Shown here: one piece after another, positions 898 through 60,167 of the stretch
Position numbering within the stretch: the stretch's first letter is position 1
How the letters are laid out: each line of letters opens with the position of its first letter
DNA from: Ulota crispa
Lineage: Eukaryota; Streptophyta; Bryopsida; Orthotrichales; Orthotrichaceae
Assembly (NCBI GenBank): GCA_963920765.1
Contig: OY987244.1
Span: 8,000,501-8,064,500, forward strand
DNA length: 64,000 nt
Reading direction: 5' to 3'
Position numbers and translations under genes: made by a program
Notes under the pieces: model-generated
What the model saw: the letters and a program-made list of their open reading frames with translations, nothing else
Database searches by the model: none
Told to the model about the DNA's origin: nothing

Positions 898-1260
898 TTA
901 ACCCTTAAAGGACTGACCCTCAACCCATGGCTCTACCCAGGAGTGTGCATTGTTCATGGGCAGCCAACAGCCTATGGCATGTGTCCAAGAGAGGTAATAT
1001 TCTCCTCAAAAGAAGGAAAAGTCAATAGTGTATCCTGCCCTCACAAAAAGGGCAGTAGGGACCTTGTACATCTCTTTACAAATTGGTGTTTTTAAAAATC
1101 TGGAGGCATTAAAAGCAACTACCTTTGACATTCAGTGATGTGATACACCTCTCTGACCACTTTCAAGAAAAAAAATTTGAAAAAAAAGTAATTTTCCACC
1201 CTCTGGGAGTGTTTTGGCACTGAAAGGACGATTTTCGTCCTTTGGACGGTTAGGGGATAA
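898..1260. mobile_element. Short TTAA-flanked piggyBac-like element, GGACG subfamily
   Basis: The left end is TTAACCCTTAAAGGACTGAC and the right end is GGACGGTTAGGGGATAA, giving imperfect TIRs with TTAA on the left and ATAA on the right. The 363-bp copy matches the 353-bp element at 59815-60167 in opposite orientation. They share the ends, a block like TTCATGGGCAGC / TACATGGGCACC, and a block like CCACTTTCAAGAAAAAAA. It is non-coding and non-autonomous. Confidence 0.65.
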
Positions 1261-2516
1261 CAATGTTATGCAAGATTCATTTGTGCGCATCACGATTCAC
1301 GCATACAGTAGTAAGTTAGTAAGTTTGTTTGTGGATTGTGCACTTCGCAGGCACGAATTGCTGCTTATCGGCCCGTCCCAGATTCCCAGTGATCTCATTT
1401 CGACCAATGATATACCTTCTCAGTTCTCACGTCAGGAGTGCCCACGACACGGATGTGTGAAATCCAAAACTGGTGACTTCGAGAATTTGCTATGGATAAT
1501 TTTAAGGGTTTGCTGATGCAACTGTGACACACGGAAAAGTCTTGGTTCATTTACGGATTCTAAATGGTAAGGAAGGAGCACCCATTCCCAATCATTTAAG
1601 CTTGTGCAGGACAGCACATAAGAGTAACAATGTAGCGCAAATTTTTTTTGGTGGTTTCATACAAAATATTGTGACATAATTTTTTTTGGAAATTTTCAAG
1701 CAAAACTGAGTTAAATACAAATTTTGAAGTGTATAAAGTATTTTGAACCCATAAACAACCAATAAACTCTTCTAATCCTGTCATAGCCAAAACACTTCTT
1801 GCCCACTACTTCTTACTTTCTTTTGGGACACATGTCATGACCTTGTTGGTCTTAATCTTGAAAAGGGAAAAAATATGCATTCCAAGGCTTCGAAATAGGC
1901 TGGTTGGAAATAGCACACCCTAGAGGTTGGGTTTGGATCCCTGGTTGGGAATGGGTGGTCCTACCTTACCACATTGTGTTTCATTATTAAGTCAACATTT
2001 AAGTCAAACCATGTATTCCTACTTTAAGAATAGAGATGCATGGCAAATTGGCAATGTTGTATTTGAAAAACAATGAATATTCTTTTGTTGGTAAACTAAG
2101 GGCATCTTTAGTCCAGAGCCTACATTAGGGTTGGCTAACGAGGCAATTAGTGAGCTTTGTTGCATGGTCTCAACCGACGCAGGCGACGCACTAGCTTGAC
2201 CCAATGCACATTGGTAGCAGGAGATGTAAACTTTATTTCTACCAAGCTTGTATAGTAGGCTTTTTTGACAAGATCTCTATTTTTGACATGCAAAGTAGTC
2301 ACCATCATTTCTTTGACATACAACAATATACAGAGTAATTTGAAGGACTCTTGAGGACCACTAAATCTACCAAGTGTGGGCTAAGTTTTGTCAACCCCTC
2401 AAAGATCATGTCCACTTGCAGGGTGCATTGGACTAGGTTTGCAGTTCTCAAGCTAGGACCCAATGTGAGAGTGCAATTACAGAGTCAATATACCCGCTAG
2501 ATTGAGGATGATCTAA
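1261..2516. other. Intergenic, nothing recognised
   Basis: About 1.25 kb of AT-rich DNA. The open frames are short and have no recognisable protein similarity or codon signal. No RNA gene or clear TIR pair was seen. Confidence 0.5.
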
Positions 2517-3296
2517 GGGCCTTTACACTAGGAGTTAAGGCCATGAAAACTTGGGGCCAACCCAAATGGCCTCAAGAACAACCTCAAGTGCCCATTGTAC
2601 TATGAATGTAATGGGGGCTAACTCTTTTGTGTGTAAAAGCTTTGAAGCCAAAAAGTTGAGACTAGAATGTTGAGGTCACTAGAGTAAACTTTGAGAATTT
2701 CAAGAGAAAACTAGTTTGCTGCCCTATTTAGGAAGGCCAAATGAACAATGATGACTCCATTTAGCATATATTAGGATTTGTATAATAAAAATTCATTTAG
2801 CGTAGGTTAAGTATATATAAAAAATAATCCATTTATGAATTGCACTTTTACTTTTGAACTCTACTCTATTTTTAAGTGGACATTGAGCTAATTTTTTTAT
2901 ACTTCGGTTAAATTTGTACTCTACTCTTGTTAAACTTGTATTCTACTTTATTTTTAAGTGGACATTGAATTAAAAATGGTGATTCACTAAACCAAAAATG
3001 GATTCATCAAATTGACACATACACAACCCTTTTTTATTTAGAGGTAGAAGGATAAAAGAAGATACCAAAGATAATTCTTGATATTTTTACTCCATCATAT
3101 GGTGTTGAATATCTCAAAACAATGTTTTTAATTCAAAAAGTAACATTTTAATAAAATTTGACAACGACCCTAGAGCCAATAATTGGCTTTGTATTTATAA
3201 AGGGCCCAATTCTCGAGTTAGGGCCGTGTTGGATTTTGTTTTTTAAATATTAAAATATTTAAAAATAAATAAACCTTGACTCCTAGTGTAAAGGCC
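2517..3296. mobile_element. TIR element, possibly PIF/Harbinger-like
   Basis: The ends form inverted repeats of about 23 bp. The left end is GGGCCTTTACACTAGGAGTT and the right end reads, as reverse complement, GGCCTTTACACTAGGAGTCA. The flanks are TAA on the left and TAG on the right, which could be a decayed 3-bp TWA duplication. A diverged relative lies at 10857-11275, sharing the left block AGGCCATGAAA-CTTGGGGC. Inside is an imperfect direct repeat of about 30 bp (TTTTTAAGTGGACATTGA at about 2870 and 2952). No transposase is visible. Confidence 0.6.
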
Positions 3297-4515
3297 TAGA
3301 GACCATTTTCAGAATATGAATCAATCAAATTTCAATATTAGGCTGGAAACCAATCTTGACTCATATTGTAAAGCGGCCCTAATTTCTAGTAGTCTAGTTC
3401 TTGCATTTTTGGAGTTCAAGAGATCTTCTCGTACAATGTTGAATAAAATTCATTGAAGAGCTTAGAAGTGATTCACAGCTTGGTACGTAGACCATGTTCA
3501 ATTATTGGCCTAACCACTCACTTTACCACAAGCCAGTTTTTTTTATAAGAGTTGAAGAGCCGTAAAGAAAGGTAACGTTAACAAGATCTAGGAAAATTTG
3601 ATGCATTTTTTTTTGGGATGTACAAAATCATAAGAAGTAAAATGAGTCATTTGATAAAATGTCATTCTTTTAGGCATTACATAACTATTGCTAAAGAATA
3701 AGTTTTTAAATGTTGTTCTTTGTATAGTATTTGAAGAATATCTTTCTTTGGTACATTGGAACCTATTTTCATTCACCATCAAGAACATTGACCATTGATT
3801 CAATAAAATTTCTTCAATTAATTAATGGTCATTACGGTCAAGAGCAAAAGTAGAAATTGTGGATTCTTGTACCCTAGAATAACATGGGTTTTATAAAACT
3901 CCTTATTTATATGACGCAAAAAAAAAACTATTCAAAAATTCATGGGATTGGATATTCAATAATATACTAGTGTATTGAGTAGGAGTACTTGATGCTAACA
4001 TTGAAAAAATGTGACACAAAATATTATGACTATAAGAATTTATCAAGAAAGGTGAATAAGGATACTAGCTATTTTTGCATCAAGGCCCATAAACCTTAAT
4101 TCCCATAAACATTTGAAATAATCCAAGTGTTCAAAATATGTAAAGATGCATTTTTGAGTGCATCTAAGAAAAATAACCCAACTATGATATTCAATAAGAG
4201 GTTCTAAATTACGACCTCTCACATACACATTTGAGCCTACTACTATACAAACCACATTATTCATCATTATTGAATGAAACCTAACATTCAAAATACCTTC
4301 TAAAAATTAATTGTAAATTAAGCACTAATGATTTATGCAAGATACTTTTTGGAATGAATTCAAAATGTGTAATTCTAATTAAAGAGATAGAGTAAGATTT
4401 CATTGTTACTTGTTTATAGTAGTCATATTTGAAAAATCAGTTTTCAAATTGAATATACTAGTTCTTGAGATAAAATACTCTTGAGCCTTGTAAATTGTAG
4501 AACATTCTCAAAGAG
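3297..4515. other. Intergenic, nothing recognised
   Basis: AT-rich sequence. The few open frames (at most about 80 codons) look random in composition. No repeats with clear ends were found. Confidence 0.5.
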
Positions 4516-4524
4516 GAGATTCAA

Positions 4525-4803
4525 GAGAAAGTTTTACGGATACCCCTAAAGTTTACAACACTTGTATAGATACCCTTGGTTTTTCAGAAATTGCACAAAT
4601 ACCCTTGGACCATAATTTTTAAGCGTTTATTTTGTTGTGCACGCTACTTCCTTCATGACCAATGTTAAAGCAAGAAGTGCAATAGAACTAAAAAGAAGCA
4701 ATGTGCACACAATGGAGACTAAGGATATTTGTGCAATTTCTGAAAAACCAGTGGTATCTATACCAATATCATAAACTTTAGGGGTATCCCGTAAAATTTT
4801 CCC
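4525..4803. mobile_element. Mutator-type MITE with perfect 9-bp TSD
   Basis: Long inverted repeats run from each end: left GAGAAAGTTTTACGGATACC, right (reverse complement) GGGAAAATTTTACGGGATAC. A second inverted block ends in CAGAAATTGCACAAATA. The flanking 9-mer GAGATTCAA is identical at 4516-4524 and 4804-4812, the TSD length of Mutator-like elements. It is the same family as 17993-18294. At 279 bp it is far too short to code for a transposase. Confidence 0.88.
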
Positions 4804-4812
4804 GAGATTCAA

Positions 4813-6309
4813 AGACCCATATCATACAAAAGATAACCGAGCACCACTAGAATAAATTTAAAAAAAAGGGGGGTTGCATGGGTCAAAATGGAAGTTGTGA
4901 AAAGACAAAGTGGGGTGTGTAAAGGATGAAAAACGAGTCAAAGTAGGTCCACTGGGCGTTCTGAAGTTAAAATGTATAATACTGAACAGGAGTAACTACC
5001 GAAGGGGCTGCTGTACGAATGGAAGCCACGGCCATAGGGCAGGCTTCTCCAACACCGTGGGCGTGACTGACCGACGCGCTGTTGACGGCCACTTCACGTC
5101 GTCTCTCTTGCAAGCAAAAGTAGTTTGTTTTTAGCCCCCCCGTGTTTGCGCCCTCCTTTGCTTCCTCCCCCTGCCTAGTTTTTCAAACTCCCTCAATGAA
5201 TTCGCACCCCAAGACGGCTATTCGTCCCCTTCGCACCGCCAATCCCCCTCTCAAGTACCACCTTGCATGCTCAGATTCCTCAGATTGATCTCAGCATTTT
5301 CTCGCTCTCAAGCATCATCTCAGATCTCTCTTCCGGCGCTCTCCAGCCACCTTTTCTGTTGGGGGATCTCCTCGATCGCATGCTGAGAAGAGCGTCTCCT
5401 AGATGGGCTCTATTCAAGGAAGGCAGACGTGGGGAGCTCTTGTGAACTGAAAAGCGCTAGGGAATTTTTTAGAAGATTCTGATTTTGACGAGTGGGAGAT
5501 TTTGGAGCGCATTGCGGTGGTGTTGGATTTTGCCGCTGGTGTTTTTTCAGGTATGACTAGAAGCTTACGTTTTGGGGGAAACGTGGGTGGGATTTTTTTT
5601 TTTATACATGAGCTGGGAGATAGGGCGTAATTTTTGTGGTTGTGATCCTTCTGTTTGTGACGAGATTGCCACTCGCTAGGCTATGTACCATTCGAGGAAT
5701 GCACAACCGTTAAAAACGGATTTTTTGGCACATTCTTCTGAGAAATTTTGAGCTTATTCATCTCCCAAAGTTTCAGTCGTCAGCTTTAGCCCTTGCATTC
5801 ATTGGTGGAAGATTCACCGAACGAGATTGGAATCCATTGGAACTCCCTCCGGGACCCTACCAACATTGGATATCGTCCAAAGTGCATTTTTTCTAGGTTT
5901 GTGCAGCCCGGAGCAGATTCTGGAATATGAGGTGCTTGCAGTCGGGGTTGACACGGTTTTCCACAATCCTAGAGATCGTTCCTATCAATGTTTGAGTTTA
6001 TTGGTAATCCAGGAATTTGTTTTCTTTAGGCAGTCCGGACGTGTACCATATGAGTTGGTTGTTTTTTCATTTGTGAGATGCTTTTACCTTCCAACTCTGA
6101 AAGCTTTGTATTTTGAGGGCTTTGATGAAATTCTGCATCCTGACTTCGAGGTTTGGATACCTGGTGTCTGAAATGAGTATGTGCAATATTTTCAGCTGCG
6201 GCGCTTTTGAGGGATGGAGGGTTGGAGGATCAGACGGTACTTATAGTAGGAGGATTTGAGAGCTGCATGAGTTATTGGAGATTCTTGCGGCTGTGACAAT
6301 TCTGGGCTT
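4813..6309 (+). promoter_or_regulatory. Upstream region and probable 5' leader of the sulfotransferase gene
   Basis: Around 5130-5450 the base composition turns C/T- and GC-rich, as in a plant promoter or 5' leader. A good splice donor (TTTTTTCAG|GTATGACT, GT at 5551) and an acceptor (ATATTTTCAG|CTGCGG, exon from 6196) suggest a leader intron at 5551-6195. This is inferred from splice-site quality only. No confident TATA box or start site can be assigned. A long open frame at 5827-6171 lies inside this proposed intron and resembles nothing I know. Confidence 0.4.
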
Positions 6310-9048
6310 ATGGTGGACAAGAAAGCATGCAAAGCTGGACTGTCTTCTTCACCACGTCCTGGCGGTGTTTCTGCTGCCAATGGAGTCCACAAGGTGACCA
6401 CTCTTCTCACTTTTTTTTGGTTCAAGTACTTCCAGATAATTGACTTTCATCAAATTCGTGGTGTTAGACGGACACTAGTTTAAAATTCATTTGACTTTTG
6501 CTAAGTGAGTGTTAAACGTAATTGTTTTCGAGCGGTTTGTGCACCAAAAACGATTATGAAGAGTCTCGGCAAAACCTAACTTTTCGTCATTTTGTCAGAA
6601 ATACAAGTATGACTATTTACATAACAATAAGGTAGAAAATAGCCTTTTGCTGGTTTGGCGAGTTTGGTGTGGTAAGAAGAAAGGAGTCAAGTGCAAAACC
6701 ATTTGATCACACGGAAACTAGTAAATTGTTGGTAATTCTGCTGAATAATTAAAATTGGCTGCCACACATGCAAGCGTCAGATAAGACTTAACTGACTTGA
6801 AGAGTTTATGCTGACTTTTGCAGGTAGTCACCAGTCATGTCGATACAAAACTTGAAGGGGGCTATGACTTCTTGGCTGGTAATATGAAGGTAAACATCCC
6901 ATTCAGTACTAGTTTCAGCTTCTCTAACATGTTGAATCGGACAAAGCTTCTAAATTGGTCAATTGTGCGAGTTAAGTGTACATTCTTATCGACCGTTTTC
7001 TTTGCAAGAAATGAAAAATGAAAAAAAATCGCAATCACAATAGATTCAACATTGAAGGTTGTTCAAAGCTTTGTGCACTTGTTGGTAGGATGTCTTTCCA
7101 AGTCCGATTTGGTAGATTATATTCTTGGGTGCTGCCTTTCTGGCTGAATTGTCATATTGGTGGGGCAGGATATATGCAGCGGAAAGGAGTGGAGAAAGAT
7201 ATCGTCGGTGTGGAAGCTGCTTGTTTTGGTAGTGATAGGAATTTTTGGAATATACACATGCATGGTGGGCGTGGGTACGAGACAGTTCCCATACGAGTCT
7301 GGGGCAGAGTTGGTGTTCCCAGACTGGAGACGAGAAGATGCTTCTTGTGCTCAACGTGGCTCTTCAGTGGATTTTTACCAACACTTTCCACTTCCGCGCA
7401 CTTATGACAGGTCTCCACTATAATAGATTGTTTTGGGAAAACCCCAATCCAACATCATGAAGAGAATCTTTTCCATGATGATGTTGTCCACAAGTTCTGA
7501 AACAAGCATTTCTTTTCTTCTGAAAGCCCTGTCAAACTGTTCGTGGGTCATGTGAAAGTGAAAGGGTGATGCATTTGCAAGTAACTTACTTTTTGCTTTT
7601 TCCATTTAGACTCCATGTGTCGAGCCAGCCGTCCTGACGTGTCCTCGGGTTCTGTTTGCAGGCGAGAGTGCAAATGCACACCTGTACACTATTTTGTAGT
7701 ATTGTCGATGCAAAGATCAGGTAGTGGGTGGTTTGAGACACTTCTTAACAATCACCCCAATATCACTTCCTATGGTGAGGTTTTCTCCAAGGCACCCCAA
7801 CGCAGGGCCAATTTTTCAGCTGTTTCGGCAACCTTGGACAGAGTCTTCAATTTGGACTGGCAAAACAGTGCTGCCAAAAATGAATGTACTGCAGCTGTTG
7901 GCTTTAAGTGGATGCTCAACCAGGTTGGTCTTGTTCGAAGATGTGGAATGTGCTTTTGCTTTGATCAAGATCCTTTGATCCGGCATCAATTCTGGGATCG
8001 TCAGCCTTGCAGATTTTTCATATTGTTTTTTTTTTACTTTCTGTAGTATGGTTCTTCTAAGCGGCCATCAATCAAGCCTTGTTCAGTGCCATTCCTCTTC
8101 TCTGATCCTTCACTTGTTTTTATCGCAGGGGCCGATACAATACAACACGGAAGTTAGAGACTACTTTGAGAGGATGGGCGTTTCGGTCATTCTGCTACTT
8201 CGACGGAATCTGTTGAAGCGGCTCATATCAATTCTGGCAAACGAATATGATCGTCTTTCAAAGCCCCTGAATGGCACTCACAAGGCACACGTCCACTCAG
8301 TGGAAGAGGTACCGGCCCTGTCAAAAATTTCCAAATTCACTGCATTTGCGGCATGAGGGTGAACTATTGCATGTAAGAATTATGTTTGACTGATTTTTTT
8401 TGCGGTTTGGCTTGCAGGCTCTGAAACTGGCAGAGTACAAACCAGTGATAGACGTGAAGCATCTTGTAGATGATCTGGCGCGAGTTGAAAACACTACCAA
8501 TAATGCTCAACTTTACTTCAAGAGTACTCGTTTCCGAGTTGTTTATTATGAAGACCTTGTAATGGGCACAAAGGTTGGCGTGAATATCATACTCCAAACT
8601 CTGAAGCATTCGAACGGAGGAAAATCTCCCAAATTTAATTTTAAAAGAAAACACAGTTGCACTAAATCTTACGACAGTAACAATGCCATGTGAAGGCAGT
8701 TTCTAATGTTGATACTGCCAACTGTAATGCGGCTACGTTTTTTGTAGTACTTTTTTTAGTGGTGGATTCTTCATTATCGAAGTAGAAACTTGAGCACGTA
8801 CAAGATCTTCAGTGTTGACTAATTTTGGTTTTCGTCATTTTTAATTTTAGACCATTTGGAATGCTGTGCAGCACCTGACTGAGATCCAAGAGTTTTTGGG
8901 AGTGCCACCGCGGAAGTTAGAAAGCCAGCAAGTGAAGATCCACACACGTCCATTGAGTGAACAAATACAAAACTGGGATGAGGTACTAGCCTGGCTCAAA
9001 GGGACTCAGTACGAGGTTCTAGTCAACGATGATGATTACGCTGGATAA
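6310..9048 (+). CDS. Membrane-anchored NodH-like sulfotransferase (P-loop family), 7 exons
   Basis: A plant PAPS-dependent sulfotransferase of the NodH-like/P-loop group. It probably transfers sulfate to a carbohydrate or peptide in the secretory pathway; the substrate is unknown. Proposed exons are 6310-6393, 6824-6889, 7169-7410, 7662-7923, 8129-8308, 8418-8573 and 8872-9048, and all phases agree, giving 388 aa. The ATG at 6310 follows an in-frame stop at 6268. Residues about 66-86 are one hydrophobic segment after a basic stretch, fitting a type II Golgi anchor. LSMQRSGSGWFETLL (145-159) is the 5'-phosphosulfate loop and LLLRRNLLKRLIS (240-252) the 3'-phosphate region. The conserved ECTAAVGFKWMLNQ, NGTHKAHVHS and HLTEIQEFLGVP blocks follow in the usual order. 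The last intron has a second in-frame acceptor at 8851 that would add seven residues. The match to my memory of Arabidopsis homologues is co-linear across the lumenal domain. The least certain part is the first two exons. Confidence 0.87.
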
Positions 9049-9368
9049 GTTCCGCATATGCGAGCATCCAATTTTACTTCAGTTTTTCCTTATTTTTTTC
9101 TGAACACTAAGAATGGTGATCTTCATGTGCGTTCACAATGATGGAAACTTAGATGGTGAAGGTTGGGTTCTGCGTGTCCAGCAGTGCCCAGTGCCGCCCA
9201 TGTCAATAATTGTTCAACAGCCTTAGACCTTCCCCTGCAGAAAGCGGGCGATATTTTTACCTGGCTCTTTGAAATCATGACCGTAGTCCTGGTGCATATG
9301 ATTGCCATGTACAAGGCTTGGTTAGAACTTTAGGCCGCAATATACACTCCTGGTGTATAATAGTGCGT
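9049..9368 (+). other. 3' flank of the sulfotransferase gene
   Basis: Probable 3' UTR and spacer. No canonical AATAAA is seen close to the stop. Nothing else was recognised before the inverted repeat that starts at 9369. Confidence 0.4.
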
Positions 9369-10241
9369 TGTACAGTACCAGGCAAGCATGAATTGTCGGG
9401 TGCCTTGCTGCAGTTCAAAGAACTTCTCATAATACATAACAGAATTGAGATTTTGTTGTTTTGAATCATAGAGATTGATTCTTGTGCAATCCAAACCAAG
9501 CATACCAAATTTTAATTCCAAAAAACCAAAACCCTATTTTTGGTGGATTATTTTGTATTAAATTCATGATTTTACATGAAAATGATTGAAGAAAATTGGT
9601 GATGAATTTTTTAGATTTGATTGCATGGGTATGTTGGAAACATCCATACGCACATTTTCCCTTCTAAAAAGAACCCCCTTAAGTAACAAAATTATAATTG
9701 ACAAAGAGTTCAATATGAGGTGTGGTAAGACCAAAATTTGTAAAATAGATATTTCTTTATGATAATCAATTTTTGTTATTTGATTCATACATTGTGACTA
9801 AATTTGTACCTTTGAACATGACAATATGTTTACTAAGCCAAAAACCAGTTAAAAAATAGAAATATCTACTTTACAAATTTTTGTCTTCTCACAACCCACA
9901 TCGAACTCTTTGTTGATCATAATTTTGTTACTTAAGGGGGTTCTTTTTAGAAGGGAAAATGTGCGTATGGATGTTTCCAACATACCCATGCAATCAAATC
10001 TAAAAAATTCATCACCAATTTTCTTCAATCATTTTCATGTAAAATCATGAATTTAATACAAAATAATCCACCAAAAATAAGATTTTGGTTTTTTGGAATT
10101 AAAATTTGGTATGCTTGGTTGGGATTGCACAAGAATCAATCTCTATGATTCAAAACAACAAAATCTCAATTCTGTTATGTATTATGGGAAGTTGAACTGC
10201 AGCAAGGCACCCGACAATTCATGCTTGCCTGGTCCTGTACA
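9369..10241. repeat. Long inverted repeat (two arms of about 390 bp)
   Basis: The sequence from 9369 to about 9760 is repeated as its reverse complement from about 9852 to 10241, with roughly a 90-bp spacer. The arm ends match: TGTACAGTACCAGGCAAGC on the left and GCTTGCCTGGTCCTGTACA on the right. Inner blocks such as TTAAGTAACAAAATTATAAT pair with ATCATAATTTTGTTACTTAA. By eye the arms differ at only a few percent of positions. No TSD is evident, so it may be a foldback transposon with lost flanks or a local inverted duplication. It starts 320 bp after the sulfotransferase stop. A read-through transcript would fold into a long hairpin. Confidence 0.9.
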
Positions 10242-10856
10242 TTCTTCGTTTTAATGAATGGCAATTGTGTCGGTTTCCATGAGATCGATCGATGGATCTT
10301 GTCGAAATAAATCTTCGGTGTGGGCTGTTACTGAAAGCGAGTCTGATGGTCCGAGAGCGAATTGTAGTGTAGATAGTTGAAGTAGTTGCATTCAATGAGA
10401 ATAGTGTGGGTCTCAATTGTTATGGATTTACTTTGCAGAAATCAAAGGACGAAGCTTATGGCAAGTAAGTGTACCGCACTCTGTGGCATGTCATAACTCA
10501 TAAGGACGTACAACTGATTTGAATTTTGCACTGGTTTTCACAAATAGTGCGGGTTTGGTAATTAGTGTGAGGTTAAGATTATTGTAGGCCACACTGATTA
10601 TGAGAGGTGGTGTGAATCCAACATTAGTGTTTTGTCTAAATTGGCGATCATTTGCAACAGAGGTCATTCTTGACTTGTTATGGAAAGTAAGATTTAGATT
10701 CCACGATTGTGACTGTAGAGCACACTTGTGTTAGTCGGAGCGTGTTTTGCATCTCTACTATGCTCCTGCAATAGTAGTAGAAGTGCTCAAACAGTGTAGG
10801 CCTAACTCTAATCCTAAATTCTTTTGCAAATACGGCGAATAGCAAAATCCAATGCT
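10242..10856. other. Intergenic, nothing recognised
   Basis: About 600 bp with no supported gene, RNA or bounded repeat. Confidence 0.45.
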
Positions 10857-11275
10857 GGCATTGCAAAGGACAATAGGAGTTGAGGCCATGAAACCTTGGG
10901 GCTATCTAAAAAAACGTGTACTCTTTATGATAAGAGTATAGCAAGGGTCCATTCTCTTGTGTTGAGAAGCCTAAATGGCAAGAAAGGAAAGTTCAGGTCA
11001 ATGGTGCTAGTCTTTGAAAACTTCACTAGAGAAGGAAGGAAGACAATCAAGCAAAGTTGTTGAGATTTCTATTTCATCTTATAGTTTCAAATATCCAAAG
11101 TATTGTTTTTTATTCAAATATATGTATTAATGAAGCATGACAATGGGCCATAGGACATTAAATGGCTTTCCATTGTTGGCCAACCCAATTTTTCTAGTAC
11201 GCCTTATCACTATTTGGCATTTTTGATATTAAAATATATTTTAAAAATTTGGCCTTGCCTAGTAATGCAAAGACC
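10857..11275. mobile_element. Diverged second copy of the 2517-3296 TIR family
   Basis: The left end (GGAGTTGAGGCCATGAAACC then TTGGGGCT) aligns with the left end of the element at 2517. The right end (GGCCTTGCCTAGTAATGCAA then AGACC) aligns with its right end. The middle is shortened to about 420 bp. The TIRs are badly eroded and the TSD is unclear, so this is an old deletion derivative. Confidence 0.5.
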
Positions 11276-11365
11276 TTAAGTCTATTTCTAAAGAATTAAC
11301 TAATGAGGCTAAGATTTGACATACAATAATTCCAAAACTACCTCTATTCCTAGTTTAAGTGGCCC

Positions 11366-17983: not shown

Positions 17984-17992
17984 TTCTTGAAA

Positions 17993-18294: not shown

Positions 18295-18303
18295 TTCTTT
18301 AAA

Positions 18304-47970: not shown

Positions 47971-48506
47971 TCAACCCCTTAAGTACCACAAAATACTATA
48001 TATTTTCAAAAAATATGGTAATGTAATAATATTTAACTGAAGTGTCATTGATTATTTTAAATCATATACCCACAATCAAATCTGCCATTGTACCCACCAA
48101 CATATCTCAACAAATCTTGAAACAAAAAGTTCAAAAGTCCTTCTAACTCGACCATGGATTGAAAATTGATATTTTTCACAAAAAAATAAAGTATTCTATT
48201 CAAAATCTAATTGTGTTTTAACTCTTTGAGAAAATTAATCATATCCGCCATTTGCAGTCATTTTTGAAGAGCCACATGTGAAATTAGGAAAGCTAGTTCT
48301 TGAGGTGAACTATACACGCACTTTTTGAACTATAATGTATATGCATAATTTTTTTTTGGAAATCCACAACACAAAAATGTTAGAGAACCAACATAAGAAT
48401 CTAACACCATATGAATGAACAAAAAGATCAAGTTTCTAAATTCATGGGACCTATTAGCATTCATTCATCATTATAAAATGAGGATGGTTGGTCCATAAGG
48501 GGATAA
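47971..48506. mobile_element. TTAA-type element with eroded targets
   Basis: Left TCAACCCCTTAAGTACCAC and right (reverse complement) TTATCCCCTTATGGACCAA share CCCCTTA-G-ACCA. The flanking tetramers TCAA and ATAA are each one change from TTAA. It is 536 bp and non-coding. Less certain than the other members. Confidence 0.6.
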
Positions 48507-50640: not shown

Positions 50641-51359
50641 TTAACACCCAAGTGTCCCCTAAAGGGACAAATGGGATTTTGGGCATGTACTTGTGGCTAG
50701 ATTACTTTGTGTGATTTTCTAAAACTTTTATGGAAGATGGGGAATTCAAATATTTGTGTGGGCAACTATTTTTTTTCTTCATTCTGACATTTATTGAAGA
50801 ACTTAAATTGATTTTTTGAAAAACAAGGGAGGGCGGACAGCTCAAAAACTTTTTAAAAACTTGCGTTTTTTAAAACAAAAATTTGAGGTTGATTCTTTAG
50901 ACTTATGTATATGTGGGAAGCTTTGAATCATTCAATTTTGATTAATGAGATGAAAGTTATGAGAAGTTTTAGTTTGTTGGTAGGTGTGGAAAATCTTAAA
51001 ACCATGCCTACCAACAAACTAAAACTTCTCATAACTTTCATCTCATCAATCAAAATTGAATGATTCAAAGCTTCCCACATATACATAAGACTAAAGAACC
51101 AACCCCAAATTTTTGTTTTAAAAAAAATGCAATTTTTAAAGAAGTTTTGGGCTGTCCACCCTCCCTTTTTTTTTAGAAATTAGTTTTTAACTTTTTCAGC
51201 AAATGTTGGAATGAAGAAAAAAAAGGATGCCCACACAAATATTTGAATTCCCCATCTTTTCTAGAAGTTTAAGAAAATTATACAAAGTAGTGTAACCACA
51301 AGTACATGCCCAAAATCCCATTTGTCCCCTTAAGGAACATTTGGGCCTTTAGGGGTTAA
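50641..51359. mobile_element. Palindromic TTAA-type piggyBac-like element
   Basis: TTAACACCCAAGTGTCCCCT at the left (TTAA 50641-50644) and GGGCCTTTAGGGGTTAA at the right (TTAA 51356-51359). A giant hairpin centred near 51,000: ACCATGCCTACCAACAAACT pairs with AGTTTGTTGGTAGGTGTGG, and GTACATGCCCAAAATCCCAT pairs with ATGGGATTTTGGGCATGTAC near the ends. The arms are about 350 bp and very similar, suggesting a fairly young copy or recent arm correction. Confidence 0.88.
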
Positions 51360-51920
51360 ATGTGAGAGCTAGGTCTCAACAAAAAAACACATAAAATAGT
51401 CAATGCTTTTATACATTTATTTTTAAAAAATTGATTTGACTCTTTATATTTCAACTAAGTTGGAATATGAAATTGGACCTTATACACTTGGGAAGTGGGA
51501 CATAGTATGAACAGCCCCTTATTTATATTGTGATGGTTTACCAAGTTGATGGGGGCAAAACCTTGTGTAATTGTTTCATGTGAATCTTACACAACTTCCA
51601 AGGCTCCAAGCTATACATGTAGAGCATGCAAGGGAATGATGCTATTTGTGATTCTCAATCATATGTGGCCCCACTAGTGGGATCCTCTCGAGAAAGAAGC
51701 CCACAATAGGAGGAAAGGGAATGTAAGTTATGTAACCTTTACTATTATCAAAGGGTTTGGACGAATGATTCTGTGGATTTGTGGTGGTGGACTGGTGGTA
51801 CTGGTGTCTATCCAGAAGTGACAGGAAACCCACTGCAAGCCAAGAATTTCCAATTCAGAATTCCGGACCCTACTACTGTAGCCAGTTCTTTTTTTGGTTT
51901 TATTTGGTCATTTCATTGTT
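51360..51920. other. Intergenic, nothing recognised
   Basis: About 560 bp. No supported feature. Confidence 0.4.
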
Positions 51921-52178
51921 GGTAGATATCCACCCTAGAATGCATGCAGGTAAGGATAATGAACATAAATCATCCACGTGTGCCCGGTCATCTATAAATC
52001 AGCGATTTCATTTTAGCAACTTTCATCCCAGTATCGGGATATTTATTTAATTTGGAAGAGAGAGAGGGTGATTTCATCCATTTTTGGCTCCATGATTTTT
52101 TGTGTTGAAGTAACCAATGTCAAAGTGAGGTCAGATGAATTGGCAAAATTTTGGCGGAACAAATTTAGCGGTTACAAA
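51921..52178. mobile_element. Diverged copy of the GGTAGAGCAAC dispersed element
   Basis: GGTAGATATCCACC at the left, GCATGCAGGTAAGGA next, then CAACTTTCATCCCAGTAT and GATTTCATCCATTTTTGGC. These correspond in order to blocks of 61952-62224. The right end is cut or obscured by the MITE at 52182. Confidence 0.45.
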
Positions 52179-52181
52179 TTA

Positions 52182-52543
52182 AAGCATCTCCTGCCACTTG
52201 CTTATAGAAGCACCTAGAAACTAGATTTGGAGGGGACTGGAGCAAGAAGTAGCAAGATATGGCTTGAAGTTCTCATGCAACTTAGCGCAAAGTCCCTGTA
52301 AAAGAGCAACAACAACGCAAGGGAGCTCTCATACCCTAATTTCTTTATTTTTGCTTCCAAGTGCATGTTAGGGGCCATGAAGGGGTCTGGCCAATACAAA
52401 GCTATAATTTGCCTTGAATGTGGCTCAGCCTGAAAGGCCTTGCTCTTGCACATCAAAAAGTACAATATTGTTGGAAACTTGAAACAAGAAACCGTTACAA
52501 GTTGAACCTGCCGAGCTCATTTGACTGCTGGCAAGAGATGCTC
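52182..52543. mobile_element. Tourist/PIF-like MITE (GAGCATCTCC family)
   Basis: Left AAGCATCTCCTGCCACTTGC, right (reverse complement) GAGCATCTCTTGCCAGCAG. TTA flanks lie at 52179-52181 and 52544-52546. It is 362 bp with no transposase. It belongs with 17037-17328 and 28534-28928. Confidence 0.8.
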
Positions 52544-52546
52544 TTA

Positions 52547-52953
52547 CCAAGTAAAGGGCCTTTCATTTGGAGTCAAAATAGCGGGAGTGTGAAGTTTTGT
52601 AAAGTGATGTTTGAAAATTTTGCAAATACAGTTGGCTCTAAGCAGGTTTTCCCAAAAAAAAATTCAAAAGTACGTGATGAAACTATTGGAAAATTCTTTT
52701 CAAAACAAATTATTTGTGTGCCAAAGAAGAAACAAAGGGTTTCAAACAACAATTCAAAGTGGTGAACGTCCGTAATGGTTTGGAAAACATTAATTTTTTT
52801 TGTTTTGGATTTGATAAAGCTGCTATTCTCCTACCCAAAGAATACTCATTACGAGAATAATTAGCAAGTTCAGCTTGAAATCTCTTGACGTCAGAATACG
52901 ATTTTAAGGTTTTTGTTGGGTGTTGTAGATTGATTTTTAATTTTTGGTGTTTA
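52547..52953. other. Intergenic, nothing recognised
   Basis: About 400 bp. No supported feature. Confidence 0.4.
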
Positions 52954-53874
52954 TTAAACCCTAAAGGCCAAAGGAGCCCACTTTGGGCCTTATGAGAACT
53001 CGGGCAGGTTCTATTGATTTCATAATTTGGAACTTTTTCATGAAATTTTCAGGATGGATGCTATTCACCATAATCTACATGTGAAGTTTTATTTCATGTC
53101 ATTCCGATTAGTAATGCCAAAGTTATAAGGTTTTCTCAATTTCAATGTCAAACCAAGCAGCAAAAATTATATTCTAAAACTTTTACTTTTATTTTTATAT
53201 AATTTTATAGAATGATACCTACTCAAAAAAATTTGAATCACTCAATTCCAAATAATGAGGTAAGAGCTAAAAGGAGTTTTATTTTGCAAGCAATGAAGGT
53301 AGGAAGAGGGTAGAAAAAGCATATAAAGTTATCTTTTACTCTCAATTTTGAAAATTTTCAAATGAAAATGAAAATTAAAGTTACTAATTGTCTGTTGGAG
53401 CATTCTCACCATTGGGATCAACAATTTTCAAATTCTTCCAAAACTTATTAGCATATTAGTTATATCTTTCATTCATCAATACCTTTCACTTTACAATTTT
53501 TGTAAAAATGAATCCAAAGTTTTTTTTGGTTAAATTTTTTTATATATGCTTTCAACCCATTTTCCAACATATTGCAAAAATTGCACAAGAAATAAAACAT
53601 ACACATTTTTCTCTAACAAGTTTGAAAAACAAAACTTCACCTTCTAGAAGGATTAGAAAAGCCTACATTTTGAAGTTTGGGCACATTGATCTTGCAATTG
53701 GTGAGGATGTTCATTTTGAAATTTTGGGACAACGTAGTTGTGCAAGTCAACTAAAGGATCCTATGGTTGGATTTGTGAAAAAGTAAGTTTCAATGAATAT
53801 TTTGACTCTAGTTTGGGGACTAGTATTTTGAAGCAGTTTTGGGCCTCTAAACACAAAAGAATTTTAGGGGTTAA
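52954..53874. mobile_element. TTAA-flanked piggyBac-like element
   Basis: TTAAACCCTAAAGGCCAAAG at the left (TTAA 52954-52957) and AAGAATTTTAGGGGTTAA at the right (TTAA 53871-53874). Just inside the right end GGGCCTCTAAACACAAAAG keeps a second, weaker copy of the terminal motif. It is 921 bp; short open frames at 53508-53786 look like chance frames in AT-rich DNA. Confidence 0.7.
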
Positions 53875-54883
53875 CACAAATTTGGAAATTAGTTATTATG
53901 AGGTAGAATGTGTTCTCTAAGATTTTGTTTCATCTTCTTCTATCAACCTTCTTCAAGAGTTTGGTCTCAATTATGGTATTTTCACATGAAATTAAGTATC
54001 TTAAAAAAATTGCATCATCAACAATAACCATAAAGTTATATGTCATTTTTTCTCTTGTGTCACCAATCATGTCATAATTTATCCAAATTGATGTTTTCCA
54101 ACTTGTTGTTGAAGTACCTTATACATTTAGATGTCATTGTATTTTGCAAGTACTTTGTGGTTATGACCTTTTGCACATCAAGGTGAAATTTAGAATATGT
54201 GAGGTTTATCACCATAATTTGGATTTGATGGTAAACCGACATTGGTGATTTTTGAATATATAAGCAAGTTATTGAAAATGCAACAAAGATCAAAACATTA
54301 GATATTTAGTGGTGGATGAGCCTTTAAGGATAATAGATGTTCAAAATTGCAAAGATGTATTAGAAACAAAATTTTAGAATTATCATTTAATAATAATTTC
54401 AGAACAAAAGTCTTAGACAATGATGTGCAAATCATAATGATTTCATGCAATTGGATCTATCAATGTATTCACCAGTGTTTATTCAAAATAGTTGAAAGAA
54501 ACTATTCATAACTTCTACTAATCTAGACATAGATTGGATACCTACAAATTTTACAATAATTGGTTTTCACTGAGTATGCAATATCTTAGTGGTTCTAGTT
54601 GTTGACTTCTAGGTTTCAAACGTATACAATTCTTTCAAATTCTTACCATACTCACTTAGTGATGTCAATTTTGAAGGGCCGTTTTTAAAATGTTGAAATT
54701 TTACTCGTGAGGTGATTTTATTTGTACTTTTCAGAAAACAATCTAGATAGCTAAACGTATCTAACAGATATACATTGATCTAACAACATCTTCTCTACGA
54801 GAAGCCTAAATGATACTCCTTGAACACCAATGGGCATTTTTTTATTCCGAAGGTTTTTTTTGAAGATCTATTTTGAACAAATG
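53875..54883. other. Intergenic, nothing recognised
   Basis: About 1 kb of AT-rich DNA. No supported feature. Confidence 0.4.
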
Positions 54884-54892
54884 TTAGAAATT

Positions 54893-55183
54893 ACAAGAAT
54901 TTACAAATAAGGGCAGAAAAGCAAAAAATAATACAGATAGAGGTATAGATTCAAATTTTTTTGTAAATTTCAGTACAATTTTAGTTTGGACATTGGTTGA
55001 TTTAGATACATTGCATTAAATGTTGACTAACTTCCAAAAAACTTGGAGGCCTCTCCAAATTAAGCCTTAAGTAAAGAAATTTTAGTAAAAGAATCCTGAA
55101 ATTGTGCTCCTATTTGTAATTTTTTTGAAAGTCTGCCCCTATCTGTAATTTTTTTGGTGTGGTGCCCCTATTTGTAAATTCCC
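54893..55183. mobile_element. Mutator-type MITE with perfect 9-bp TSD
   Basis: Right end, reverse complement, GGGAATTTACAAATAGGGGC; left end AGAATTTACAAATAAGGGC after a few extra bases. Inside the right arm the phrase CCCCTAT(C/T)TGTAA(A/T)TT is repeated three times. The 9-mer TTAGAAATT is identical at 54884-54892 and 55184-55192. It is 291 bp and non-coding. Confidence 0.82.
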
Positions 55184-55192
55184 TTAGAAATT

Positions 55193-55534
55193 CACATAAA
55201 AATCTAAAAAACATACGGAAGAATGAAAGATTCAAAGTGTTTGCTTGCATGGCCCATGTTTATGTTCCTTCACTGCTCAAAATTTGAATGTTACGGGATT
55301 AATAACAATCTGTGGTTTCTTGATTTTCTTACCCTCACTTGCACTGTAATAGGGTTTAAGAAGTGAAATAACCCCACCTCTTTTTGAGATTGGCGAAAAT
55401 TAAAAGCTCGTTCGTTCCAGGCCCCGTGTCAAAGCCCTAGTTAGGTTTTTTGGTGCAATATTACCCTTAAAAAATTGAGTGACCAGAATGCTACTCTACA
55501 GCATAAGGTATAGACTGGCTGGGCAGAGAGGGGT
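55193..55534. other. Intergenic, nothing recognised
   Basis: About 340 bp. No supported feature. Confidence 0.4.
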
Positions 55535-56449
55535 TTAACCCTTTAAAGACCACAGACATTTTCCCAAAATTCACTAGAAATTGGGGCGATAAAATTAGAT
55601 GTGCATTTGAAACAAATATGAACCCAATTTGAATAATTCAATCATACAAATGTGAAGGACATCTTGTTTGTTGTAATGTGTCAAAATTTCAGCTAGATTT
55701 ACCATTGGAGGTGAAATATTATAATGATTGGGTGAGCTGTATATGGAAAATCTCCAGTTTTTCATGCTTGTGTGGATTTGAATGTTAACGCTTCATGCAA
55801 GCTTTGATTGAGAAGAGCCTTACATTTCTAAAAAGCAAGGTTTCCCACTTTTCCAACAAGACTAGTTTCACTCAAAATAAACAAAAACAGCAATCACAAG
55901 GTGTAGCTAAGTGAACAAAAAGGGTCAAAAATCCCATCTTCTTTGCTACCCTCAAACGGTTCTACAAGAAATTTGATAATTGTTACAGAAAATTCAACTA
56001 GTGAAAGAAATCAAGAATTGGCCTTAAATGTAGGATGTTTTTTTTTATAAATAAATTGATAGCATCATTTCAATGGATTCTCAAACAATACAATTGTACT
56101 ACTACCGTATAGAGAAACAATGCAAGCGTATTTCTTATGCAATTTGAATTTTTTAAAGATTACACAATTGAAATGTGGCATTCTTCTTGGATGTTTGATG
56201 TATTGTATTGTTGCTTTGATCCATCTGTGACAAAATATGGATATGAACTTTGAGGTCATGATGTATAAACACCGTTATTTAACAACTCCCATATCCAATT
56301 CTATTGTTGTTTTTTGGGTTGGATGCAAAATTCATGTGATCACAAGCGTTCTTCAAAATCCTTTTCTAAATTGTTGAACGATTCTACTGTATAGGCCAAA
56401 AACTACTCTCCCGAACCAAAATATGGTTGGGTGGTCTCTACAGGGTTAA
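55535..56449. mobile_element. TTAA-flanked piggyBac-like element, AGACCAC subfamily
   Basis: Left TTAACCCTTTAAAGACCACA (TTAA 55535-55538), right (reverse complement) TTAACCCTGTAGAGACCACC (TTAA 56446-56449). The 915-bp interior is non-coding and shares little with the CCCCTAAAGGCCC group, so it is a separate subfamily. Confidence 0.8.
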
Positions 56450-56897
56450 GTGAATTTCTTGGCGTCCCAATCAGTGGTCCCAAACGTGACTTTCCTCGAT
56501 CATCTCAATTAGTTAAAAATATCGGTAAACGTGCTAAAAAAACAGATTTAGAATTAAGGTGTTGCAATTTGTGTAACTACGTACAATGGTTTGGTAGACA
56601 TTTTTTAAACTCAGTCACGCTTGTAAACACTGGTCCCAGTTGTTTGCAGTGTTTGTTGGATGTTAGATGCAACACCAAAAATCATGGGTCAGTATTGCAT
56701 TTAAACACTAGATTTTGGCCTATAAACATTCTTCCCTCACAGGCAGTTCCTAAAATGTGCACCATGGTTTTGTTTAATTGATGTGTTAGCATGTGCAAGC
56801 TTGTCCACATGCATATCTCTGAAATCCTAAAATGAGAAGTATTTCTAATTGCTATTTGCAAAATCAACCCATCTATATTCTTGCTGAAATTGTATAC
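56450..56897. other. Intergenic, nothing recognised
   Basis: About 450 bp. An open frame (56431-56781) begins inside the preceding element and has no recognisable domain. Confidence 0.4.
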
Positions 56898-57154
56898 AAC
56901 GCCATATTCATTAAATTGGGAAAATCAGATTCCCAAGTTGTACTTGCTTTACACCTAGAGCTCGGTTTAAGGTGGTCACCTTAGAGTATGTTCACACTTG
57001 GTGTTAGGAGGGGTAGTAGCTAGCAAAATTAGATGCATTTGGACACATATTTAGACTCCATTTGTATTGCTAATACCCCTCCTAACACCAAGTGTGAACA
57101 TACCTTTAAACCCCCAAAATTAGGGTTTCTTCCCAAATTAATAAATATAGTGTT
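56898..57154. mobile_element. MITE of the ACACCATATT family, split by a second MITE
   Basis: Left AACGCCATATTCATTAAATT, right (reverse complement) AACACTATATTTATTAATTT. It aligns along its length with 58644-58764 once the nested 56984-57105 element is set aside. Related ends occur in DRT102 intron 1 (14710-14969). Confidence 0.75.
56984..57105. mobile_element. Nested Tourist/PIF-like MITE (GTTCACACTTG family)
   Basis: GAGTATGTTCACACTTGGTG at the left; right (reverse complement) AGGTATGTTCACACTTGGTG. TTA flanks lie at 56981-56983 and 57106-57108. At 122 bp the arms pair almost fully (TTAGGAGGGGTA with TACCCCTCCTAA). The uninterrupted sister of its host at 58644-58764 reads GATACCTTAATCCC (reverse complement) at this point, supporting TTA as the target. 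Confidence 0.85.
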
Positions 57155-57600
57155 ATACTTTCTTAAGAATATGAGAGTTTAGGGATTGATGTTATGTACG
57201 CCCTTAATCAGCAATTTAGAATCCATATTTTTTTCTACTTTAGTTGAATAGCCTCATTTGGGGTATGCTAAATTGTGAGCGAGAACCAATAAACGGGGAG
57301 GTGTGAACCTATATTTTTTAATCAAAATATTAAATTTCATCTATAAAGGTCTTATAATTGTGTAACACTTTCATTCATCTCTTGAAAAGCTTGCTATGTT
57401 TTGAGTATTTTCTTTGATTTTGAGCTCAAAATTGGTTTTAGCCCACAAAATCTCAACTCTCTGCTCATGGGCTCACCATTTTGTGCTCACAACATAGCGT
57501 TGTCTTCTCACACTGAAGTCCACATGACTTAGGTAGGATGTCTCACATTTCAACAGTTTCACTGACCTTTTGGTGAGGAAGTCAGAAGAAATTCTTATTA
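57155..57600. other. Intergenic, nothing recognised
   Basis: About 450 bp. No supported feature. Confidence 0.4.
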
Positions 57601-58221
57601 GGGGGTTTCATATATGTCGTTTAGAGGCAATTTTGTTCACGTGAATGAAATTGGTGAACAAGTTAGCTAGGCCACCATTCATGTCCTCGCGATCACCCAT
57701 TCAAATATTTGAATTGCAGTGAACTACTCACCACCCTTTCAACTCTGCCCACAATCACTAATTCCGTACGGATCCCTTGAACTCCACCATAGTTGCTTCT
57801 AATCTGGAACCCTTTGTCTCCCCAGTTGTCCGCTTCTAATCAAGATCTCTTCAGCTCCACCATTGTCGCTTCTCGCGCATTGCAATTCCTTGGATGACCT
57901 TGACCTAGCAATCAACTTTGCATCCAAACTGTTTAGAGACATTGAGCAAGAGCCAGAGGCGCGAAGCGAGAGCCGAGAGGCGGGCAACAACACAAACAGG
58001 CACGGCATGGGCGCAAGCACGGACGCGGGAGCAAGAACACAATTGGAGTTAGCGAGAGAGGCAAGAAGGGAGAGGCTTCACGTTGTTCATGCGTGAACGA
58101 GCCATGAAGACCTCTCGGAGATCCTCATGGCTCGTGCACTTTTGTGACTTCACTTTCACCATGAACAAAAACTTGTTCACTACCATTCGTTCACTGTTTT
58201 TTTGAGATATATGAAACCCCC
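57601..58221. mobile_element. TIR element with a GC-rich interior, possible Pack-type
   Basis: Ends GGGGGTTTCATATATGTCG and (reverse complement) GGGGGTTTCATATATCTCA. Subterminal inverted blocks around GTGAACAAGTT / AACTTGTTCAC lie just inside. Between them (about 57720-58100) the sequence becomes GC-rich and carries an open frame with LDDLDLAINFASKLFRDIEQ followed by a charged tail. That suggests a captured host fragment, but I cannot name a source gene. A short hairpin (ACGAGCCATGA / TCATGGCTCGT) lies at about 58097-58135. The TSD is unclear. Confidence 0.62.
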
Positions 58222-58546
58222 TATTATTTAGAGAGATTTCCTTGTGAATGAAGACTGCTGGGCCTTTTCAAAAAAAGTCCAAACTGATTGTACCCAGAGC
58301 TGGTATGTGTTTACTTGGTAAGGCACTGGAGCAGACCATGTGTCTTGCATATGAAAATACAATAAGTGTGGGCAGTGTTAGAAAAGCCCAGCCCAGCTCA
58401 ATATTTATTACTCTAAGAAAAAAAAAATTGAAAAATGCCTAAATAACAAATATTTTGGGAGTATTTCTTTTCACCATAAAAACATTTAACACAAAAAAAT
58501 CCAGTCTACTTCTATTTGTTGCTTTTTTTGTAGACTCTACAGACTA
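58222..58546. other. Intergenic, nothing recognised
   Basis: About 320 bp. No supported feature. Confidence 0.4.
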
Positions 58547-58555
58547 TTTAGAATA

Positions 58556-59075
58556 GGGAATTACTACCGCGACACCCTAAATTGCTAACGGGACACCCCC
58601 TATGAGCATGAAATGTGATTTTAATGTTGATTTTTTAAATTTGAACACCATATTCTTTAAATTGGGAATTTTGTAACATTTTGGGATTAAGGTATCCACC
58701 ATAAACCAAGCATTAGGGTAGAACTTGGGAATCTAGTTCTCCCAATTTAGTGAATATGACGTTTTTGGGTCAAAAGATTTGTTTCATTTTTATCATTTTA
58801 AGGCTATACTAAAAAAAAAAAAAGAGGTGTGCTTAAATTTGAAACTAAAAATATAGGACTTTTGAGTTACGTAAAGCAAAACTACATTAAAAAGTAGTAT
58901 TGATGCAATAATATTTCAACAAAAAAATTGTGTATGTCATGTTTTCTTTCAAGAAGGTTGTAATGCCATGATTGAATGAATGATGAACCATTAAAAAAAT
59001 AGCACTAAATTATCAAATTTCATGATCACAAGGAATGTCCCTTTAACAATTTAAGGTGTTGCCGTAATAATTCCC
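58556..59075. mobile_element. Mutator-type non-autonomous element with perfect 9-bp TSD
   Basis: TIRs of about 44 bp: left GGGAATTACTACCGCGACAC, right (reverse complement) GGGAATTATTACGGCAACAC. The 9-mer TTTAGAATA is identical at 58547-58555 and 59076-59084. A smaller MITE (58644-58764) sits inside. It is 520 bp and non-coding. Confidence 0.9.
58644..58764. mobile_element. Nested MITE of the ACACCATATT family
   Basis: Left AACACCATATTCTTTAAATT, right (reverse complement) AAAACGTCATATTCACTAAA. It lies within the MULE-type element at 58556-59075. About 121 bp; the sister copies are 56898-57154 and 14710-14969. Confidence 0.7.
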
Positions 59076-59093
59076 TTTAGAATATGTCATAAT

Positions 59094-59479
59094 TCAACCC
59101 TTAAATAATGAGTTGGTCTCTGTGGCAAAAAGTGGGCTGCTGTAAACTGAAAACTACCCGCTACAATGGTGTGGCCAAGTGTCAACACAATTTAATATTA
59201 TTGCTCAAGGCTGCATAAACTAGCACTGCATGCTGACCACATGGAAATTGTGAGAACAACATGGGGCTTAACTCTATCTCTATGAATCTTCTCACAATTT
59301 GAGACACCTCAAAATATGAGTGCGTTCAAAGAGGCTATTTTTGACTTCCTTGATAAACCACGTTTCCATGATCATTTTTTAAGAAAAAATTGAATGAAAA
59401 GTGACTTTCTTACATCCAAAAGACTGTTTTTGTATTCCGTTGGACGAAAAATGCATGGATTAACATATTTAAGGGTTAA
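59094..59479. mobile_element. Possible TTAA-type element, CCCTTAAATA subfamily
   Basis: Left TCAACCCTTAAATAATGAG, right (reverse complement) TTAACCCTTAAATATGTTAA. The shared end is only about 12 bp and the left target is TCAA, so this pairing may be chance. Confidence 0.4.
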
Positions 59480-59814
59480 AGCTTGATGGTTTGTTATACA
59501 AAGGATTCTATTTAATGTAAGGTAGCCACATCAATCACCACCAGTTTAACAGTTTTATATTCGTATACAATGGGATGTAAATCTGTGTTGAAGAGTGTAT
59601 GCCACTTGTACATGAGGATGAAATTGAGTTGTAGATGGTAACGGATATTTACAGGATGAAGCACCTTCTCAAGGGCCAAAAGAAGGTGCTAAAACGCCTA
59701 AAACCTCAAGGCTAAGCGCAACCGTAGGGCACCTTATTTTTGGAAAGGCCAAAGAAGATAAGTCTTAAATAATGCGTAATATCCCATGTTGAGAGCATTT
59801 CTACAAGGTTTTGA
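59480..59814. other. Intergenic, nothing recognised
   Basis: About 330 bp. No supported feature. Confidence 0.4.
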
Positions 59815-60167
59815 TTAACCCCTAAACGTCGGCAGGGACGAAAAACGTCCGTTGCCTTTGAAAAAAACTGTGTCCCAAAAAAATACCAATTTTGATCTGA
59901 TTTTTTTCAGAAGTGATCATAAAAGCGTAGTGCATCATGGAAGGCAAAAATTTACCTCTTGATATACATTCATTTTATTTTGTAACTCAAATTGTGATAC
60001 ATGGTGTTAGCTCCCAAGCTGCCCTTCTTGCAATTTTCATGAGGGCACCATGCACTGTTGACTTTTCCATCTTTTTGAAGCAATACTACTGGTGCCCATG
60101 TACAAAACACTGTAGAATGCTACAAGTGGGGCAAGCCACAGTGATCCATCCGTCCTTTAAGGGTTAA
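59815..60167. mobile_element. Short TTAA-flanked element, GGACG subfamily
   Basis: Left TTAACCCCTAAACGTCGGCA (TTAA 59815-59818); right (reverse complement) TTAACCCTTAAAGGACGGAT (TTAA 60164-60167). A subterminal hairpin GGGACGAAAAACGTCCGTTG corresponds to AAAGGACGATTTTCGTCCTT in its sister at 898-1260. Both targets are intact here. Confidence 0.82.

Follow-up and report, generated by a model that had tools for sequence, protein, structure and literature searches.

TTAA-bounded elements in the window

The 64,000-bp stretch of contig OY987244.1 analyzed here (positions 8,000,501 to 8,064,500; hereafter the window) has a G+C content of 38%, contains no N, and carries a dense group of short elements bounded by TTAA. 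Fourteen of these are two-ended (E01 to E14), range from 249 to 959 bp, and occupy 9,094 bp or 14.2% of the window; together with two one-ended copies, the 16 occupy 10,680 bp (16.7%). Each of the 14 has TTAA, or a variant differing in one base, at its edges and terminal inverted repeats (TIRs) starting with CCC or CCT; E11 has lost about 10 bp at its left end. A first-pass annotation of this DNA had described a dense group of elements that target TTAA and have inverted ends starting with CC, and this is borne out both by the 14 two-ended elements and by pair counts exceeding those in shuffled sequence (see below). Its tally of fifteen two-ended copies and one cut copy, covering about 18% of the window, was close, although we count 14 two-ended elements and two one-ended copies, and somewhat lower coverage. 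The group is a real, well-defined, and locally dense set of TTAA miniature inverted-repeat transposable elements (MITEs) with piggyBac-like ends. Its members, in window coordinates and with no strand assigned, are as follows.

1-797: one-ended copy with its right end (TTAA/CCCCTAAAGGACCA) at 797; the left end lies at or beyond the edge of the window
898-1260: E01, 363 bp, edges TTAA/ATAA; weakest pair, 8/12 TIR match
11366-12154: one-ended copy with its left end (TTAA/CCCCTAAAAAAATC) at 11366 and no identified right end; E02 starts at 12155
12155-13098: E02, 944 bp, TTAT/TTAT, TIR match 14/14
26202-26927: E03, 726 bp, ATAA/TTAA, whole-element palindrome
27599-28350: E04, 752 bp, TTAA/TTAA, palindromic across 664 bp of its length
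29287-30245: E05, 959 bp, TTAA/TTAA
30242-31185: E06, 944 bp, TTAA/TTAA; TTAA at 30242-30245 common to E05
33667-33915: E07, 249 bp, TTAA/TTAA, ends CCCCTGAGCGCC / CCCCTAAGCGCC
34177-34777: E08, 601 bp, TTAA/TTAA, shorter relative of E02
46840-47490: E09, 651 bp, TTAA/TTAA, 22-bp perfect inverted repeat counted from TTAA
47971-48506: E10, 536 bp, TCAA/ATAA
50641-51359: E11, 719 bp, TTAA/TTAA, whole-element palindrome with about 10 bp of the left TIR missing
55535-56449: E12, 915 bp, TTAA/TTAA, ends CCCTTTAAAGACCAC / CCCTGTAGAGACCAC
59094-59479: E13, 386 bp, TCAA/TTAA
59815-60167: E14, 353 bp, TTAA/TTAA

The two one-ended copies are linked by an inverted alignment of 8-797 to 12142-11366 (806 columns, 74%). 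E05 and E06 abut with one single TTAA between them, an arrangement that suggests insertion of one element at the edge of the other. For E14 there is an alternative, as a lone right end at 60587 scores equally well with its left end (9/12 each) and would give a 773-bp element at 59815-60587. The window contains 22 exact TTAACCC[C/T]T sites, of which 16 are edges of two-ended elements, two belong to the one-ended copies, and four are left over. These are the right ends at 23341, 37186, 53874, and 60587, for which partners were sought by eye, in the end listing, and by the pair test; only 60587 found one, the left end of E14. E01 and E10, as single weak members, could be chance occurrences. We also note two outward-facing ends at 2538 and 3276 (TTAA/CTCCTAGTGTAAAGGCC and TTGA/CTCCTAGTGTAAAGGCC), which perhaps represent a further end subfamily.

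Facing pairs compared with shuffled sequence

In 100 dinucleotide shuffles, with both strands scored, TTAACCC[C/T]T occurred 1.74 times on average and at most 5 times, compared with the 22 sites of the window. Pairs were then counted between facing ends starting CCCC, CCCT, or CCTC and no more than 1 kb apart, using 200 shuffles. Requiring exact TTAA and a match at 9 or more of 12 TIR positions, we found nine pairs, representing eight elements and one alternative pairing, whereas shuffles gave 0.005 on average and never more than 1. Allowing up to one mismatch per edge and requiring at least 8/12, there were 14 pairs against a mean of 0.485 and a maximum of 4; these comprise 13 of the 14 elements and the pairing 59815-60587, a competitor of E14, whereas E11 is missed owing to the roughly 10 bp lost from its left TIR. 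A wider test admitting any CC start gave nine pairs (shuffle mean, 0.045; maximum, 1; 200 shuffles).

Other counts are less telling. When the CC start is dropped, TTAA pairs within 1 kb number 20 compared with a shuffle mean of 3.8 and a maximum of 9, a tally that includes palindromes unrelated to the edges. When all 256 4-mers are compared over 5 kb at 10 of 12 matches with no CC requirement, TTAA (23/12,076 pairs) is no richer than AGCT (8/4,254) or GGCC (5/1,523), and AATT gave 51/45,983; TTAA does not stand out because long palindromes are frequent in the window. There are 51 single loose ends (shuffle mean, 36.9; maximum, 52), which are no evidence by themselves. The 19-base end consensus has 17 matches at up to two mismatches compared with none in 100 shuffles, a count that is circular because the consensus derives from the window itself. 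Since loose ends and CC-free TTAA counts are uninformative, the evidence for the group comes from the CC-ended pairs and from sequence kinship between copies.

Ends, interiors, and palindromes

We aligned 29 ends, including those of the two one-ended copies and omitting the deleted left end of E11. Their consensus is TTAA-CCCCTAAAGGnCCA, with an information content of 0.5 to 2.4 bits from the first base of the TTAA to TIR position 14, 0.05 to 0.39 bits at TIR positions 15 to 20, and 0.04 to 0.20 bits in the outer flank. Because the ends were picked by TTAA (up to one mismatch) and the first five TIR bases (CC start), the independent conservation is that at TIR positions 6 to 14. With that selection for CC, the TIRs start with CCC in 26 of the 29 ends and with CCT in the other three. 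By eye, the main group (defined below) has two end types in differing combinations, one with a GGGGACAAATGG stretch and one with CCCAAGCC followed by a T-rich segment. The several end subfamilies reported earlier are supported. The plant telomere repeat, CCCTAAA, is found inside the end motif, which we judge to be a coincidence.

The interiors are more varied than the ends. A main group (E02 to E06, E08, E11, and both one-ended copies) shares interiors that are 69 to 92% identical, in both orientations. E09 has only about 28 terminal bp in common with E05 and E08, E10 and E05 have 18 bp in common, and E07 and E12 have no stretch in common with the main group at E values up to 1e-3. E13 and E14 match at 71% over a 97-bp stretch, and E01 shares 42 bp with E14 (83%, inverted) and 40 bp with E04 (88%). 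Common ends on different interiors are the pattern expected from cross-mobilization by one transposase.

Three members of the main group are long palindromes. E03 aligns to its own inverse at 80.5% over 735 columns, E04 at 85.8% over 27643-28306, and E11 at 85.6% over 50647-51345. As single-stranded DNA, E03 folds at -238.6 kcal/mol (mean of 20 shuffles, -68.2), whereas E09, which is not a palindrome, folds at -88.0 kcal/mol compared with -59.2 in shuffles. Palindromes also occur outside the group: an 873-bp near-perfect one at 9369-10241 (TGTACAG ends, not edged by TTAA, self-inverse at about 90%), two related snap-back palindromes at 4523-4803 and 17991-18296 (ends near AAGGGAAAATTTCATGGATACCCCT; no TTAA flanks), and a 151-bp hairpin at 31243-31393 with 72-bp arms at 93%, located 57 bp past the right edge of E06.

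Target duplication

Identical 4-bp edges are present in 10 of the 14 two-ended elements, nine with TTAA/TTAA and one (E02) with TTAT/TTAT; the remaining four have unequal edges (E01, TTAA/ATAA; E03, ATAA/TTAA; E10, TCAA/ATAA; E13, TCAA/TTAA). Read outward from the CCC, 2-bp and 3-bp flanks are unmatched (at best 2/3 for 3 bp), 8-bp flanks match at no more than 5/8, and 9-bp flanks at no more than 5/9, with the exception of AT-rich E03 (7/9). PIF/Harbinger (Tourist) elements, with 3-bp TAA/TTA duplications, were therefore rejected; a fit would need ends offset by one base. Duplications in hAT and Mutator elements are 8 or 9 bp, and these superfamilies were likewise rejected on duplication length.

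What remains is a duplication of 4 bp or, alternatively, of TA within a TTAA-preferring target next to an A-CCC terminus. A 2-bp TA duplication of Tc1/mariner (Stowaway) type is possible only with a TIR starting A-CCC, which E03 fits and E02 does not. E02 favors a 4-bp duplication, and E03 taken by itself favors TA. Over the five off-consensus elements, the changes required total five for a 4-bp duplication and six for TA. Conservation of the inner edge base (26/29) is close to that of the outer edge base (27/29) and below that of the first two TIR bases (29/29), which were selected. The 4-bp reading is preferred, although not proved, because of the TTAT/TTAT edges of E02 and the lack of a consistent longer direct repeat; the TTAA duplication proposed in the first-pass annotation is accordingly upheld as the better reading, with a 2-bp TA duplication less likely.

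Coding capacity and other features

Six-frame translations, with stops read as X, were searched against Pfam at E values up to 0.1 over 1-14998, 17501-32499, 32400-35482, 45600-49000, and 49001-63999, about 51 kb that includes all 14 elements. Only two families matched, LacAB_rpiB (1.9e-24) and Sulfotransfer_3 (0.0038). As the 14 elements lie inside scanned stretches and none gave a transposase match, no recognizable transposase remains in them, and the link to piggyBac comes from the ends alone. The elements are short, multicopy, have inverted terminal repeats and a target duplication, and contain no Pfam transposase, as is characteristic of MITEs. There was no match to Rfam at gathering scores, and a tRNA search found none. 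The pattern TTAACCCCTAAAGGNCCAA (18 specified bases) occurs in no viral contigs and in six bacterial or archaeal contigs, about the chance level (estimate, about seven), and a 23-base interior piece occurs in no viral contigs. These three pattern scans yielded no relatives; superfamily, abundance, and an autonomous partner are matters that we infer.

Of the 28 stop-to-stop open reading frames (ORFs) of at least 110 amino acids, 10 were scanned singly against Pfam. They include an RpiB domain at 14215-14664 followed by a cupin domain at 16366-17037, an exon pair that resembles plant DRT102. This pair agrees with a green plant host without fixing the lineage; the earlier assignment to a land plant is thus consistent with these exons, although they are no proof of it. 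A sulfotransferase-like exon is present at 7585-8046 (E, 4e-05; below Pfam's cut-off). A probable long terminal repeat (LTR) retrotransposon spans 35491-45577; its two repeats, each about 350 bp long, are 84% identical, start TGTCACGTGATG, and end TCTTATCA. Integrase_H2C2 is matched weakly (E, 0.0099) at 43212-43574, and downstream of this lies a PHD finger (E, 2.7e-05) at 44361-44783, which may be unusual at such a position.

Proposed mobilization of the elements

The explanation that we think probable is that the elements are MITEs mobilized in trans, with a transposase of the piggyBac superfamily, whose gene would lie elsewhere in the genome, as the likeliest source of activity. A single cut-and-paste enzyme, or a few closely related ones, would move the short noncoding elements, recognizing an end of about 14 bp (consensus, CCCCTAAAGGnCCA), inserting at TTAA, and duplicating it. 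Elements that are palindromic over nearly their full length were probably formed when repair duplicated one half in inverted orientation, and these copies would have stayed mobile because both ends remained functional. The elements, their common ends, their TTAA edges, and the lack of a recognizable transposase are observed here, whereas we infer the 4-bp duplication as such, mobilization in trans, and the identity of the enzyme. A piggyBac element, once cut, carries a TTAA overhang. piggyBac is described as duplicating TTAA on insertion and restoring one TTAA on excision (PMC10905368), and its ends as usually having CCC as the first three bases, with rare edge variants that include TCAA (PMC10813416). 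Although the terminal motif is given as CC[C/T]T, a CCCC-starting coral family is classed as a piggyBac MITE in the same paper (PMC2872659). Moth piggyBac transposes in rice cells (PMC10905368), so plant cells permit piggyBac chemistry.

Several observations weigh against this explanation. The strict CC[C/T]T motif is present in only six of the 29 ends, with C at position 4 in 23; the TTAA and CC positions are conserved partly by construction, because the ends were picked on them; and six-frame Pfam searches found no transposase, including DDE_Tnp_1_7, in the roughly 51 kb covered. The duplication is read from filled-site edges, E03 (ATAA/TTAA) fits a TA duplication and an A-CCC terminus without any mutation, and the edge variants ATAA and TTAT are absent from those listed in the excerpted text of PMC10813416. 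By their ends, the elements match piggyBac best, as the first-pass annotation had proposed, but membership is unproved because no transposase was found in the scanned parts of the window.

The elements could instead be TTAA MITEs moved by another or undescribed TTAA superfamily in plants, such as a plant-specific group or Sola3, which uses TTAA. We consider this unlikely, yet deserving of serious attention. TTAA with CC ends is no exclusive proof of piggyBac, most ends have CCCC rather than CC[C/T]T, the scanned sequence offers no transposase to settle the matter, and in the fern Ceratopteris, Sola elements amount to 1,565,090 bp compared with 122,417 bp for PiggyBac (PMC6890710). Among TTAA superfamilies, piggyBac and Kolobok were compared by their termini, and Kolobok was rejected: its ends are of the form 5'-RR...YY-3' (PMC9587614), the opposite of the 5'-CC...GG-3' seen here, where all 29 ends start with CC (picked so, yet paired in excess of shuffles). 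Tc1/mariner-type elements, with a TA duplication, an A-CCCC terminus, and a strong T-TA-A target preference, seem decidedly improbable. E03 would need no mutation, the TTAA/TTAA edges look the same under both models, and with change tallies of six and five the edges alone hardly decide; however, the TTAT/TTAT edges of E02 need two changes under TA and none under a 4-bp duplication, and the inner edge base is conserved like the outer base and less than the first two TIR bases, a weak argument given that those TIR bases were selected.

That the group reflects chance TTAA sites and simple palindromes without transposition can be virtually dismissed. Four leftover TTAACCC[C/T]T ends, against 1.74 sites in shuffles, loose ends within the shuffle maximum (51 versus 52), and TTAA pairs that are not outstanding without the CC requirement are all compatible with it. 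Against these stand the 14 CC-ended facing pairs where 0.485 are expected (maximum 4 in 200 shuffles), the nine exact-TTAA pairs where 0.005 are expected, and related copies of about 72 to 92% identity in both orientations at several places; for the group as a whole, chance is rejected by the shuffle counts. Beyond the piggyBac-type explanation for the window itself, we put forward more tentatively that a high-copy, long-lived TTAA/CCC MITE superfamily with several end subfamilies and palindromic members exists in a land plant, driven by its own piggyBac-class or undescribed TTAA-specific transposase. Such elements have so far been counted as trace components in the plant kingdom.

Comparison with known systems

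The first-pass annotation regarded piggyBac as not usual in land plants, which is overstated, as PMC10004981, PMC4438587, and PMC6890710 list plant PiggyBac elements. PiggyBac is one of seven angiosperm MITE superfamilies (PMC10004981), is among the superfamilies present in all groups studied (PMC4438587), and PiggyBac-like elements are stated to occur in plants (PMC8086355); in the excerpts of PMC3680318, PiggyBac is named only in the method. A moss paper (PMC10619864) was rejected as a lead because the match in its excerpted text is to 'piggybacking'. No publication among the matches listed describes a dense plant TTAA/CCC MITE family. PiggyBac in plants is therefore already known, and the surprise is the local density seen here. 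Within one window, this is a well-defined new MITE group and not a new kind of system; if the whole genome were equally dense, this would amount to a clear instance of plant piggyBac-type expansion, would make an autonomous plant piggyBac a target to search for, and would aid repeat annotations that leave TTAA elements unclassified.

The coral piggyBac MITEs (CMITEs), which are flanked by TTAA and have CCCTTTAAGCCCTA and CCCCTCAGTGTCCG among their ends, resemble the elements described here in being short and noncoding, in having several CCC-starting end families and terminal repeats of about 14 bp, and in that some copies adjoin one another (PMC2872659). They differ in that CMITEs are about 100 bp long with a conserved interior and less conserved ends (PMC2872659), whereas the elements here are 249 to 959 bp with conserved ends and varied interiors, and three are palindromic. 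CMITE family I also has a matching autonomous piggyBac copy (PMC2872659), and none is known for the elements here. Kolobok elements share the TTAA target duplication and differ in the purine-pyrimidine form of their ends (PMC9587614). In Ceratopteris, PiggyBac has likewise been assigned in a land plant genome, with 1,230 copies, 122 kb, and 0.00% of the genome, compared with 14 to 17% of a single 64-kb window here, a comparison of annotation counts and not of sequences (PMC6890710).

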